Source of the DNA: Methylocystis rosea SV97
GTDB lineage: Bacteria; Pseudomonadota; Alphaproteobacteria; Rhizobiales; Beijerinckiaceae
Assembly: GCF_000372845.1 (NCBI RefSeq)
Contig: NZ_KB889963.1
Span: forward strand, 1,732,146 to 1,796,145
Reading direction: 5' to 3'
DNA: 64,000 bases
Within the stretch, counting starts at the first letter, position 1, and every line of letters begins with the position of its first letter. Positions 9,047 through 38,344 of this stretch are shown one piece after another. The translations under genes and the position numbers were made by a program. The notes beneath the pieces are model-generated. The model saw nothing but the letters and a program-made list of their open reading frames with translations, was not told the origin of the DNA and ran no database searches.

Positions 9047-9583
9047 ATGCGTCGACTCCTGCTCCTGCGCCATGGCAAGGCCGACCGGCATTCGGCCGGC
9101 GGCGACCGCCAACGTCCGCTCACCCGTCGAGGGATGGAGGATGCACGGCGCATGGGCGAGTATCTGCGAGACGCCGACATCGTGCCGGGCCTCGCCGTCG
9201 CTTCCGATGCGCGTCGCGCCAAGCAGACCCTCGACCAGGTGCTTGAGGCGTTTCCAGGCCATGTCACGCATCTGATCGAGAATACGATTTATCTTGCGAC
9301 CGTCGACCATCTGGTCGAGATTTTGCGGCAGACGCCTGACAAGGTCGCGACGCTGCTCGCCGTCGGTCACAATCCCGGCTTTGCCGAACTCGCCTCATGG
9401 CTCGCCGGCTCGGGCGAGGCCGATGACTTGGCGCTGATGCGCTCTAAATTCCCAACGGCGGCGCTGGCGATGCTCGACTTTGAGAGCGATCATTGGGGGG
9501 ACGTCGGCAGGGGCGGGGCGCGACTTGCGCGCTTCGTCACGCCGGGCATTCTACGGGGCGAGGCGACGGAAGACCCCGACTAG
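9047..9583 (+). CDS. sixA: Histidine phosphatase, SixA-like
   Basis: 178-aa member of the histidine phosphatase superfamily, which uses a phosphohistidine intermediate. SixA dephosphorylates the phosphohistidine of HPt domains or of the nitrogen phosphotransferase system. The RHG catalytic motif is at residues 8-10 (LLLRHGKAD) and the second histidine is in VGHNPGF near residue 108. The conserved arginine is in SDARRAKQT. Length is close to E. coli SixA (161 aa). The last 21 codons and the stop are duplicated at 11076-11140. The stop codon forms part of a CTAG that borders a palindromic element immediately downstream. Confidence 0.9.
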   Translation: MRRLLLLRHGKADRHSAGGDRQRPLTRRGMEDARRMGEYLRDADIVPGLAVASDARRAKQTLDQVLEAFPGHVTHLIENTIYLATVDHLVEILRQTPDKVATLLAVGHNPGFAELASWLAGSGEADDLALMRSKFPTAALAMLDFESDHWGDVGRGGARLARFVTPGILRGEATEDPD

Positions 9584-9912
9584 AGCGCGCTGCGAAAAAG
9601 TGGGAACCGGTTTTTCGCGTTGAGCGCGCTCTAAACTTTTGGAATCGATCACGTTATCTGCGTTTGGGCGATTCCGCCCAAATGCAGCGTGATCTAGCGC
9701 AGTTCGCAAACCCGCAAAGAGCGGCCATGCTGATCGAAGCGCTCCTGACGATGCTGGCCGTAGCCGCGCCGCACAAGGCGCCGGCGGCGCTCGTCGCGCC
9801 CTCGTCGGCGTTCGCGGCGACGCCAAGCCCCGCCTATCAGCCTCAAACGCGCGCCGTGGACAATTGGCGCTTCGAAAGCGCGCTGGCGCTGGAGATGGCG
9901 CCTGTCGCCGCG
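9520..9912. repeat. Segmental duplication, copy A left arm (partner 11076-11352)
   Basis: The stretch from the sixA 3' end through the first 62 codons of the next gene recurs almost base for base at 11076-11352. The offset is 1556 bp before the palindromic element at 9584-9697 and 1440 bp after it. The difference is explained by that 114-bp element plus a 2-bp indel. This is a recent intrachromosomal duplication; a few substitutions separate the copies. Confidence 0.92.
9584..9697. repeat. Palindromic mobile-like element with CTAG at both junctions
   Basis: A two-hairpin element. The first hairpin has ends AGCGCGCT and AGCGCGCT with an inner stem GCGAAAAA/TTTTTCGC. The second runs from GATCACG to CGTGATC with an inner stem GTTTGGGCG/CGCCCAAAT. 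CTAG occurs immediately before it (9580-9583) and at its end (9694-9697). The duplicate locus at 11136-11139 has a single CTAG and no element, so this window holds both a filled and an empty site. No transposase is encoded; if mobile, it would depend on an enzyme supplied elsewhere. Confidence 0.85.
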
Positions 9913-10110
9913 CGGCCCGAACTCGCCGACTTGCTCGGTTTGCGCGTCGTCCTCGCGGTGCCTGACGAGGTGCGCCCGGCGCGCCTCGCCGCGCGGGAAG
10001 GAACGATCGGATCTTGGGAAAGGCAGTGGCATGAGGCGGAGGAATTCTACTTCGGGTCACTCATGCCGACAGCCAGCTTCGACGTGGTGGTTGCAGCTTC
10101 TGGAGATTAG
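9727..10110 (+). pseudogene. Chimeric frame: 5' part of duplicated gene fused to a kinase-like C terminus
   Basis: Residues 1-62 (MLIEALLTMLAVAAPHKAP onward to ALEMAPVAA) are nearly identical to the start of the intact gene at 11167. At base 9912 identity stops. The frame continues into RPELADLLGLRVVLAVPDE, then REGTIGSWERQWHEAEEFYF and a terminal SFDVVVA. That tail resembles the C-terminal end of uridine-kinase-like P-loop enzymes (arginine-rich lid, then a W..E..YF motif) without the P-loop. The frame is therefore a junction product and is unlikely to be functional. Its TAG stop lies 2 bp before the cupin start codon, which suggests the kinase tail and the cupin were neighbours before insertion. 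Confidence 0.7.
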
Positions 10111-10112
10111 GC

Positions 10113-10577
10113 ATGCCCGTCATCACGCCACAGCACTTCGTGACCGAAGACCGAGAACAAAGTGATGTCTGTGGTCCGGCGCGCGCGCACTGGATCAGCG
10201 AAGCGGCAGGGCTCACCCAGTTCGGCGCGCTTATCGAAATTCTGCAACCCGGGTCGCTGTCTTCCCTGAAGCATTGGCACAGCGCCGAGGACGAGCTGAT
10301 CTACGTCCTCGAAGGCGAAATCACGCTGATCGAGGGCGAGACCGAGACGATCCTTCGCGCCGGCGACGCGGCCGCTTTCAACGCTGGCGTCGCGGTCGGC
10401 CACCAGCTCCATAACCGCAGCAAACGTCCGACCCGGTGCCTGGTCGTTGGTGCACGTGCGCCTGTCGATGCGATCACTTATCCGTATCACGACCGCGTCT
10501 GTCATCGCGACCGTTCGCTTCCGGACGACATCTGGACCGATGGCTCGGGGGCGCCAGCTTCAAATCCATATCGCTGA
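10113..10577 (+). CDS. Cupin-domain protein
   Basis: 154-aa single-domain cupin. The metal-binding cupin motif 1 is visible as KHWHSAEDELIYVLEGE near residues 52-68, followed by the GDAAAFNAGVAVGHQL motif 2 near 92-107. Such small cupins bind a metal and act as isomerases, dioxygenases or storage/sensor proteins; the substrate is unknown. GGAG in the preceding kinase-like tail is a suitable ribosome-binding site for the ATG at 10113. The gene sits inside the segment (9913-10716) that interrupts copy A of a duplicated gene, so it arrived as a passenger. A second start is not needed. Confidence 0.86.
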   Translation: MPVITPQHFVTEDREQSDVCGPARAHWISEAAGLTQFGALIEILQPGSLSSLKHWHSAEDELIYVLEGEITLIEGETETILRAGDAAAFNAGVAVGHQLHNRSKRPTRCLVVGARAPVDAITYPYHDRVCHRDRSLPDDIWTDGSGAPASNPYR

Positions 10578-10716
10578 TCCTCCGCGCAGTTGGCGCCAGA
10601 TTGGCGCTTCCTGACGAAGCAGAGGCCAGTCCGACGGATGCAGCTCCACGGCATTCTAATTGCGGGGCGGCTCACAGCCAGTCGGCTTCAGGCTGCTCAA
10701 TTGAGCTGCTCGTCAA

Positions 10717-11074
10717 CTATGGGAGGCGCACGGCGCGCGCCATCGAACCGTCGCCCCGGACGATTGTCGCCGACCTGTCGCCGTCGCCCGCGCCGCGGTC
10801 GCCGCCGGCTGGCGTTTCGAATTGCTCCGGGGAGCTTGCGCGGATCGCCACTTACGCAGCCACCATAGCCCAGGGCGTCGTCGGCGGCGCCAACGAGGAT
10901 CTGGCGCTGTTCACCGCGGACGGCGCGCCGACCGAAAATCTGGCCAAGGTGATGGCGAATATGGCGGCGGTCGAGATCGGGCCGGCGCGGCCGCGCGACG
11001 CGGTGATCCGGATCGCCGTCGCGCAACTGCGCCAGCTGCTGGAAGAGCAAGCAAAGCCGCATGCGGGGCCATGA
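10717..11074 (+). pseudogene. 3' fragment of duplicated gene (copy A), with internal in-frame deletion
   Basis: This fragment resumes homology to the intact gene at 11167-12270. Bases 10717-10745 match 11541-11569, then homology jumps to 11894 and runs to about 12195 (GVSNCSGELARI through RIAVAQLRQ). The jump corresponds to a 324-bp deletion, exactly 108 codons, with the short direct repeat ATCG at both junctions in the intact copy. The frame is still open and ends at 11074, but the fragment has no start codon of its own after the insertion. It is a decaying copy. Confidence 0.8.
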
Positions 11075-11075
11075 T

Positions 11076-11352
11076 GCGACTTGCGCACTTCGTCACGCCG
11101 GGCATTCTACGGGGCGAGGCGACGGAAGACCCCGACTAGCGCAGTTCGCAAACCCCCAAGGCGGCCATGCTGATCGAAGCGCTCCTGACGATGCTGGCCG
11201 TAGCCGCGCCCCACAAGGCGCCGGCGGCGATCGTCGCGCCGTCGTCGGTGTTCGCGGCGACGCCAAGCCCCGCCTATCAGCCTCAAGCGCGCGCCGTGGA
11301 CAATTGGCGCTTCGAAAGCGCGCTGGCGCTGGAGATGGCGCCTGTCGCCGCG
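11076..11352. repeat. Segmental duplication, copy B (partner 9520-9912)
   Basis: The first 64 bases repeat the last 21 codons and stop of sixA (11076-11139), so this is a promoterless sixA tail. It joins directly, through a single CTAG at 11136-11139, to the leader and first codons of the intact hypothetical gene at 11167. It is the empty-site counterpart of the palindromic element in copy A. Confidence 0.92.
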
Positions 11353-36862: not shown

Positions 36863-38217
36863 GGGTCGGCGCGGTTTTCACAGCATTTTCCCTGATAGCG
36901 TTCGCTTCGCTTTTCGAGACGGGAGTCTTTGCACAGGAGCAGAACGAGCCGGCGGAGATGCAGATAAAGGCGTCTGTTAAGCCGTCACCCAAGAAAGCGC
37001 GCGTGACATCGCCCAAGAAAGCCGGCGCGCGGCCGCCGTCCCAGCGAAGCGGCGGCGTGTTGGCGAAACATCTTGAGATGGCTGTCCTGATCGACGCCCA
37101 AAGCCGGTCGCTCGAGGCGCAGTTTCGCGCCATCTCCGCGCGTTACGCGACAGTCAATTCGCTCACGCCAGGCTCGCCTTATGTCGCAGGCTATCAGCGC
37201 AATGCGGCCGCCGGCAATCTACGCAATTACAACGAGACCGAACTTGAGGTCGGCATGCCGTTATGGCTGCCGGGGCAACGTGACGCCCTTGCGGGAACAG
37301 TGAACACCGGACTCTTCGAGGTGGAGGAGCGCCTCGCGCTCCGTCGATTGGAAGTCGCTGGCGTTTTGCGCGACGCATGGTGGAACGCGCAACGTGCGGC
37401 GCGGGAAGTTTCCGTTGCGCGCAATCGCGTCGCCACTGCGCGCGATATCGGCGCGGACATGACGCGCCGCGTCGAGCTTGGCGACGCCGCCCAGACCGAT
37501 GCGCTGCTTGCGAAGAATGAAACGCTCGCCGCTGAAACGGAGCTTGCGCAGTCGGAGGGCGCGGTAAAAGTGGCGCAGGTCACCTACATGGCCTTGACCG
37601 GCGGCGCGCCGCCCAGCGGCGCGCTGGAATCGGTGCGCCCGGCCATCGACATCGAGGAGCATCCGTCGCTGCGCGCCCCGCGCGCCGCGCTTGCGCGGGC
37701 GCGGGCGCAGGCGGAGCTTGTCGACGCGACGCCGATCGATAATCCCGAAATCGGAATTTTTGGCCGCCAGGAACATAACGATCAATATTCGACCGACCCG
37801 TCGCAGCAAATTTCCGACCAACGCACCGATGCGACGACAGTTGGCGTGCGCTTACGCATTGCGATTCCGACCGCCGGTCGAAATGAGCCAAGACGCGCCG
37901 AGGCGCTTGCCGAAATGGATCGCGCCACCGCTGAATATGAACGCGCGAAGCGCGTCGTGCTGGCGGAGATAAAAGCTGCGCGTGAATCATTGGCGGCGGC
38001 GCGGCGCGCGGCGACATTCGCCAACGCCCGTCTCGTCGTCGCCAACGACCAATTCGAACTGTCGCGCAAAGCGTTCAAGCTCGGCGAACTCAGCGCCTTC
38101 GATCTTTATCGCGTGCGCCAGATTCAACTCGATGCGCAGCGCATGGAGGCGAACGCCGAGATCAATGTCGGCGTCGCGATCTCCCGACTCAATCAGGCGC
38201 AGGGATATGCGCCTTAG
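36859..38217 (+). CDS. TolC-family outer-membrane efflux channel (CzcC-like)
   Basis: 452-aa outer-membrane factor of the RND exporter. A signal peptide (MRVGAVFTAFSLIAFASLFE, cleaved near FAQ) is followed by a Lys/Pro-rich linker (residues 40-65). The two coiled-coil helical repeats of the OEP fold come next: LVVANDQFELSRKAFKLGE, with helical repeats around 75-240 and 285-440. It overlaps the permease gene by 4 bp, so it is the last gene of the operon. A palindromic repeat follows its stop directly and may act in mRNA 3'-end protection. Confidence 0.92.
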   Translation: MRVGAVFTAFSLIAFASLFETGVFAQEQNEPAEMQIKASVKPSPKKARVTSPKKAGARPPSQRSGGVLAKHLEMAVLIDAQSRSLEAQFRAISARYATVNSLTPGSPYVAGYQRNAAAGNLRNYNETELEVGMPLWLPGQRDALAGTVNTGLFEVEERLALRRLEVAGVLRDAWWNAQRAAREVSVARNRVATARDIGADMTRRVELGDAAQTDALLAKNETLAAETELAQSEGAVKVAQVTYMALTGGAPPSGALESVRPAIDIEEHPSLRAPRAALARARAQAELVDATPIDNPEIGIFGRQEHNDQYSTDPSQQISDQRTDATTVGVRLRIAIPTAGRNEPRRAEALAEMDRATAEYERAKRVVLAEIKAARESLAAARRAATFANARLVVANDQFELSRKAFKLGELSAFDLYRVRQIQLDAQRMEANAEINVGVAISRLNQAQGYAP

Positions 38218-38318
38218 AGCGCCTCCTGATCACATGGAATCAAGTGATCGATAAGAACCGCTCAAATCATAATGTTGGAGCAGGGCCCGATCGAAAAAGT
38301 CTGTCAATGTTTTCGGAC
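38217..38318. repeat. Dispersed palindromic element after the RND operon
   Basis: It starts AGAGCGCCTCCTGATCACATGG and carries TGATCACATGGAATCAAGTGATCGA, which pairs with itself. It ends near CAGGGCCCGATCGAAAAAGTC. The TGATCACATGGAATC... with GCTCAAATCATAATG...GGAGCAG arrangement is a dispersed intergenic repeat found in many alphaproteobacteria. It begins at the last base of the channel gene. Confidence 0.6.
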
Positions 38319-38344
38319 CTGCCCGCGCGTCGGCGACGCGCGCT

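Follow-up and report, generated by a model that had tools for sequence, protein, structure and literature searches.

A palindromic element that occupies one copy of a site and is missing from the neighbouring copy raises the question of whether the empty site was never hit or has been vacated. Such a pair lies in the window analysed here, a stretch of 64,000 nucleotides from the methane-consuming bacterium Methylocystis rosea SV97 (NCBI RefSeq assembly GCF_000372845.1, contig NZ_KB889963.1, positions 1,732,146 to 1,796,145 of the forward strand), in which the end of a gene for a SixA-like histidine phosphatase and the start of the gene downstream of it occur twice. In copy A, the element, which consists of two hairpin arms, is found between two CTAG tetranucleotides, the first of which is composed of a C and the TAG stop codon of the sixA-like gene, and copy B has one CTAG at the same point. 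The initial annotation of this DNA had described a filled and an empty site with exact borders, and both the pair and its coordinates were reproduced: according to a repeat finder the offset between the copies is 1556 for 9507-9586 versus 11063-11142, 1442 for 9694-9717 versus 11136-11159 and 1440 for 9721-9912 versus 11161-11352, a change that corresponds to 114 bp for the element and a 2-bp indel in the spacer. On balance, we favour the explanation that one insertion at the stop codon of the sixA-like gene in core Methylocystis was followed by at least two exact losses, and by three if copy B is placed rightly.

The target of the element was derived from the borders of 74 copies in 17 genomes. 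After removal of twelve probable orthologues, in some cases on the basis of only loosely similar flanks, 62 copies that are independent by their flanks were left. The first G and the last C of the element are invariant (62/62 each). The T and A that adjoin them are present in 58 and 58 of the 62 copies on the left and in 58 and 54 on the right, and the next base is a pyrimidine in 56 copies on the left and a purine in 57 on the right. CTAG/CTAG borders occur in 26 of the independent copies, whereas the other 36 never have equal 4-mers on the two sides, the commonest pairs among them being TTAG/CTAG (8) and CTAG/CTAA (4). Where both TAs are intact (45 copies), 38 conform to YTAR and 26 to CTAG, against 112 and 18 of the 927 TA sites in the window (binomial p = 2.5e-28 for the enrichment of YTAR), and empty alleles retain one TA. 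From these border counts, and given that the element supplies its own G and C, the target duplication is TA within YTAR, with CTAG preferred. The 4-bp CTAG duplication suggested in the initial annotation is therefore rejected, as 36 of the 62 copies lack CTAG/CTAG borders and none of these has equal 4-mers. That annotation had named a CTAG forming an internal, invariant part of the element on one side only as a finding that would contradict it. This applies in part: the left CTAG contributes its G, and the right CTAG its C, to the invariant sequence of the element, whereas the outer bases vary.

The same counts bear on a source of mobility that the initial annotation had proposed to look for, a REP-associated tyrosine transposase (RAYT, TnpA-REP; REP, repetitive extragenic palindrome), which would move a REP-like element in single-stranded form with CTAG as an uncopied tetranucleotide guide. 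The hairpin arms do adjoin a tetranucleotide, but a duplication of TA is required by the purine that follows the right CTA (57/62) and by the single TA of empty sites, and the search for PF01797 gave no match in the M. rosea genome, with a control search positive in 5 of 14 genomes. A RAYT source is rejected on the latter result, and we give this explanation almost no credence.

Comparison with relatives places the site in a wider context. Matches to the copy B protein were obtained in 30 of 61 genomes, that of M. rosea included; the loci of 25 relatives were chosen, leaving out the partial or more distant L045-L050, and 24 were readable (L038 was not). The element is inserted at the identical base, with unchanged orientation, in eight relatives (G018, G004, G016, G005, G021, G028, G036 and G035a) as well as in copy A. 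Orthologous loci without the element, which the initial annotation had proposed to look for, are those of G023, G015 and G013 in the core and G035b outside it, each with a single CTAG; copy B is likewise an empty core allele. Four outgroup alleles have CTGA or CTAA at the site, and eight distant alleles have CTGA (6), CTAA (1) or CTAG (1). The right flanks of G028 and G013 are partial. The filled or empty state of this stop codon is polymorphic between Methylocystis species.

The filled alleles of the core most likely descend from one event, as judged from an alignment of all seven with 74 other copies, the 12 likely orthologues among them. One column separates the two groups: it holds T in 7/7 core filled alleles, and A (60), G (7), C (6) or T (1) in the others, of which the three nearest are one base from the locus consensus. 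This private T indicates one core insertion. Repeated insertion at a CTAG hot spot would agree with the strong preference for CTAG, and the filled state of the distant pair G036 and G035a could be a separate event; yet the core insertions share their orientation as well as a T that is absent from 73 of the 74 other copies, which rules out independent core insertions and makes a hot spot very improbable as an explanation of the locus. G036 and G035a do not have the private T, and they may carry the same older insertion or a separate one.

Filled and empty alleles are mixed in trees of the flanks from which the element was left out. In approximately unbiased (AU) tests without copy B, the seven filled core alleles were rejected as one clade (p-AU 0.0027 over 1.7 kb and 2e-7 over the 0.5 kb adjoining the site), as were the empty alleles (0.0014); the core then requires two changes of state, and the starred branches, with a single gain, imply two losses. 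A 1.2-kb tree with copy B, which left out G028 and copy A, rejected one clade of five filled alleles (1.6e-4), one of four empty alleles (1e-55) and a grouping of copy B with G015 (3.7e-5). Copy B there pairs with the filled allele of G018 (support 97/96), the core changes number four, and the starred branches force three losses given a single gain. Over the 236 bases by the site, again with copy B, most forks were unresolved and there were three core changes; a single clade of seven filled alleles (p-AU 0.005) or of the empty alleles (0.003) was nevertheless rejected. Precise removal between CTAG repeats, which the initial annotation had offered as its second option, fits these flank trees better than a pre-insertion site does, and the empty site of copy B is more likely a loss than a site that was never hit. 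An empty sister site alone is no proof of a pre-insertion state.

The empty state could nonetheless be ancestral, with one entry of the element, spread of the filled allele between species by homologous recombination in short conversion tracts, and a copy B that was never filled. This is rather unlikely in our view, although some points are in its favour: the filled state has a single core origin, copies A and B are clear mosaics (nearest to G013, G016 or G018 depending on the part), and the core elements differ by 2.0% on average, below most flank windows. However, the sequences beside the site in empty alleles agree with those of filled relatives, so that conversion tracts of a few bases would have been needed each time. 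The empty G013 has a 1-bp deletion at most 7 bases from CTAG in common with the filled G004 and G028, and the last 50 sixA bases of copy B are those of the filled G018. Moreover, the same TA is occupied in two alleles from outside the core, G036 and G035a.

We infer loss in preference to conversion, and the following course of events is proposed. The element, as a short, non-autonomous DNA transposon of CIR type (CcrM-associated intergenic repeat), would insert at the TA of YTAR, preferentially CTAG, duplicating TA only. Its single entry into the stop codon of the sixA-like gene in core Methylocystis was probably brought about by an IS630-family transposase, for which no close autonomous partner insertion sequence (IS) was found among the best loci inspected per genome. 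Entry into a TAA or TAG stop codon would rebuild TAG, because the element starts with G; the SixA-like gene accordingly ends in TAG at 9581-9583, of which base 9583 doubles as the first base of the element. Exact removal leaving one CTAG would then have taken place between the CTAG repeats at the base of the hairpins through slipped-strand deletion, a process that is established for palindromes in other bacteria. The focal filled allele has ten direct repeats of at least 4 bases near its borders, of which CTAG is one; that the CTAG product is common to all four core empty alleles favours a mechanism linked to the hairpin feet or the element ends.

An IS630-like transposase that still recognises the ends could have removed the element in place of slippage. 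The identical product in the four core empty alleles despite longer direct repeats would suit such an enzyme, and DDE_3 (PF13358), a mark of IS630-type transposases, was found in 23 of 37 genomes, that of M. rosea included. Six of 30 inspected loci have terminal repeats at TA that start with GAG, with C before the left TA in 6/6. They represent at most five different IS (L275 and L296 being one), and the scan required TAG at both ends; L275 has CTAG-bordered ends also without this filter. An inner stretch of the element scores like these IS repeats: 7 of the 127,950 positions in the window, its own among them, reach that score, but the score matrix was built from the ten ends found in the same analysis. 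No IS with ends closely like those of the element was seen in a search of the best loci per genome, in which 8 of 55 loci matched at least 11 of 14 bases and the best (L283) was another copy of the element, and hairpin-removing deletions at other loci resemble slippage. Removal by a transposase is improbable in the light of these points, and slippage is the mechanism that we would prefer. As a separate observation on transposases, the 4.7-Mb genome G009 is very rich in IS copies, with 83 DUF4096 (PF13340) transposase domain matches.

BLAST matches to the element occur at 15 places in the M. rosea genome, the focal one included (16 rows, one of them an overlapping reverse match). For five further copies in this genome, the flanks were used to search nine genomes, followed by alignments across nine or ten genomes at four of the loci and across two at the remaining one. 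At locus 1, G018 and G016 are empty with the first bases of the element joined to the right flank, a junction that is a deletion footprint, and arm 1 is shortened or gone in G005, G015 and G021 (G013 and G004 were unscored). A single CTAG is found at locus 2 in G021 (G013 unscored). Locus 3 (L014) is filled only in M. rosea and G023, and locus 4 has filled-type spacing in all nine genomes, as judged by match positions. Locus 5 is filled or shortened in five of ten genomes; it is cut off in G013 and has other right flanks in G016, G021, G023 and G004, all five being unscored. Copy number varies widely across the genus: an arm-2 pattern (at most 3 mismatches) had no match in 20 of 39 genomes and 36 matches in G029, which is 64% complete.

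Several results weigh against repeated exact loss by slippage. The loss at locus 1 used a junction other than the exact CTAG product, TTAG in the empty alleles of G004 and G016 at locus 2 stands against CTAG, or a changed base, in filled ones, and locus 3 has no TA at the right end and differs in its junctions from one empty allele to another, which does not fit the TA rule. At the focal site, 6- and 5-bp direct repeats near the borders were used by none of the four core empty alleles. The position of copy B is also less firm close to the site, where the AU test allows it to join either G018 (p-AU 0.47) or copy A (0.19); over its first 186 bases it differs at 5 positions each from copy A and from G016, and at 10 from G018. 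Recombination between species is evident, whereas AU tests assume none, and through short conversion tracts the empty state could be transferred with no exchange of markers. Finally, G015 and G013 are draft genomes (about 40 and 240 contigs) from which a palindrome could drop out in assembly; G023 (4 contigs) and the genome of the window (2 contigs) are less prone to this.

The features of the locus are listed in Table 1.

Table 1. Features of the element, its target and the two sixA-associated copies in the window.
Feature	Position	Strand	Basis or remark
SixA-like histidine phosphatase gene	9047..9583	+	ORF; PF00300, E 9.7e-10
Left copy of duplicated target TA (target YTAR, here CTAG)	9581..9582		End base counts, 62 independent copies; empty alleles retain one TA
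Arm 1, hairpin	9581..9633	+	DNA fold; helices 1-3 of pairing analysis
Mobile element proper, 112 bp, GAGCGCGCT...AGCGTGATC	9583..9694	+	Invariant inner G/C; empty alleles
Private T (family consensus A)	9621..9621	+	In all seven core filled alleles
Linker	9634..9646	+	GANTC site GAATC at 9642-9646
Arm 2, hairpin	9647..9694	+	DNA fold; GANTC site GATTC at 9670-9674 in and beside loop
Right copy of duplicated TA	9695..9696	.	End base counts
Copy A, 5' part of gene downstream of sixA, ends at about 9912	9727..9912	+	186 bases
Segment with cupin gene, interrupts copy A of gene downstream of sixA	9913-10741		PF07883 match
Copy A, 3' remnant of gene downstream of sixA	10742..11041	+	300 bases; 92.0% to copy B, 97.7% to G016
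Copy B, sixA-like gene tail with single CTAG (empty site)	11074..11139	+	CTAG at 11136-11139; TA at 11137-11138
Copy B, complete gene downstream of sixA, 367 aa	11167..12270	+	ORF

The order along the window is sixA-like gene, element, 5' part of copy A, cupin segment, 3' remnant, second sixA tail and copy B. The SixA-like gene also matched the sixA family TIGR00249 (E 2.5e-18) under its cut-off (66.4 versus 74.5 bits), and the 367-amino acid protein of copy B had no match in Pfam or NCBIfam. A second palindromic repeat of similar layout, from a sister subfamily, is located on the minus strand at 38209-38322 of the window; a repeat close to the corresponding locus in L026 aligns with it at a local score of 134, compared with 50 for the other strand.

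The frames at the element borders were compared as well. Of 55 copies, 28 had the frame of the left-end TAG open over 168 nt, while the other two frames were open in 16 and 15 (Fisher p 0.006); at the right end the corresponding frame was open in 17 of 49 copies and the others in 17 and 15, which is no difference. From the left-end counts stop codons might be favoured, or better tolerated, as sites, which we regard as a lead only.

The initial annotation had placed both sites inside one duplication, which applies at most to part of the locus. Copies A and B are mosaics, to judge from their identities to different relatives: copy A is nearest to G013 in its first 186 bases (3 differences, against 5 from copy B) and to the sister species G016 in its 3' remnant (Table 1), and copy B is nearest to G018 over 1.2 kb, with 95.6% identity in the part that matches the remnant. 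Another lineage is the source of the 3' part of copy A, and the identities of the remnant rule out a simple tandem duplication of the whole pair for this part. Adjoining the site a local duplication is possible, and sister copies are allowed there by the AU test (0.19).

The element itself is strongly palindromic. The DNA fold of 118 nt has a free energy of -43.9 kcal/mol, compared with a mean of -17.4 (sd 2.6) for shuffled sequences (z -10.3; 0/200 shuffles as good). The ends adjoining TA are GAGCGCGCT and GATCACGCT; read inward they are alike by eye in 7 of 9 bases, or 10 of 12 with the flanking CTA, and further in the arms are separate hairpins. GANTC occurs at least once in 51 of 54 aligned rows and at least twice in 41, compared with the 0.46 expected per row when the first 20 rows were shuffled. 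Two of six frames are open in the focal copy, and 48 of the 54 rows have an open frame. Pairing was found in 95.8% of cells over 52 distinct rows, versus 95.1 in shuffled alignments. Changes on both sides of a pair affect 15 cells (shuffled mean 2.2, 0/500 as high) in four pairs, all in arm 2. We base no functional claim on this covariation, since four pairs were reached by 28 of 500 shuffles and slid versions gave 3 to 6. In the A1 alignment compensated changes are confined to arm 2, mostly at pairs 94-116 and 99-112, and they are also seen between orthologous copies at one site (G000 versus G023, locus L014). They could be due to selection on the hairpin or to palindrome-templated repair.

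As the initial annotation had supposed, the element is widespread: when 199 genomes of the order were searched with a covariance model of 54 copies, 85 proved to contain the family. So did 9 of 190 genomes drawn from the class, that of M. rosea included, and 7 of these 9 are from outside the order. Ten of 20 distant copies read by eye have a TAG left end and a GATCTA right end.

Among known small repeats, RUP of Streptococcus pneumoniae, an IS630-driven miniature inverted-repeat transposable element, is similar in its length of about 107 bp, its TA targets and the proposal of IS630 terminal repeats as its source, as given in the relevant passages of PMC2229807. The Methylocystis element differs in that only its first bases resemble IS630 ends and that no partner IS was found; IS L278 of the M. 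rosea genome has the start TA-GAGCG in common with it, and 7-8 of 20 bases are alike overall. ERIC and Correia elements are likewise small, with a target site duplication and TA at the termini, but their stem is formed by the two ends, in contrast to the two arms and linker seen here; this comparison is by description (PMC2229807, passages on these elements). Among Rfam families of Brucella, BASRCI27 aligns from end to end with the two-arm layout of the element at 22 bits and E 0.004, and BASRCI408 aligns with arm 1 at E 0.00065, both scores being far under the respective gathering scores of 59.8 and 398. BASRCI27 might, as a guess, be a copy of CIR or of Bru-RS, which is described in part of PMC2267715 as a Brucella repeat of 103-105 bp. 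Two Rfam 'Brucella sRNA' families, RF02600 and RF02599, align weakly with the element, which raises the question of whether they are copies of palindromic repeats rather than dedicated sRNA genes.

By description, and not by sequence comparison with published CIR, the element is of the CIR type. CIR elements are reportedly those of Chen and Shapiro (2003). They are presented in sections of a 2007 review as repeats of Caulobacter, Brucella and other alphaproteobacteria (Delihas 2007, PMC2229807), and the likeness includes the length of about 110 bp, two long inverted repeats as arms, a linker, GANTC at the terminal loop, TA ends and the occurrence in alphaproteobacteria. The RAMA domain PF18755 gave one match in the M. 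rosea genome (control search positive in 1 of 14 genomes, a Caulobacter), and the protein concerned is probably CcrM. A literature search found no paper on the target duplication of these Methylocystis elements or of CIR among the matches listed, which comprised titles and the starts of abstracts, most subscription journals being outside its coverage.

The family is known in kind, and the mechanism previously proposed for this locus has to be corrected. Of the new points, those with the best support are the TA/YTAR rule of this CIR-type repeat and its probable exact loss, more than once, from a single stop codon. A more general model, in which CIR-type repeats are mobilised by IS630, settle in TAR stop codons by virtue of a first base that restores TAG and remain open to exact excision, with an enzyme or a replication slip driven by the hairpin emptying one site in several lineages separately and without a scar, and occupancy being reversible over species time, is put forward as a speculation that is unlikely to hold. 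If the element is a CIR, the locus provides an insertion rule (TA in YTAR) and exact ends, a reason why stop codons tolerate insertion, and a natural assay for clean loss. In the corresponding passages of the 2007 review (PMC2229807), the target duplication of CIR is given as unknown, terminal inverted repeats as absent, stops as present in all six frames, and more information on movement as needed, whereas the element described here duplicates TA within a YTAR target, has partly similar ends (7 of the first 9 element bases) and leaves two frames open.

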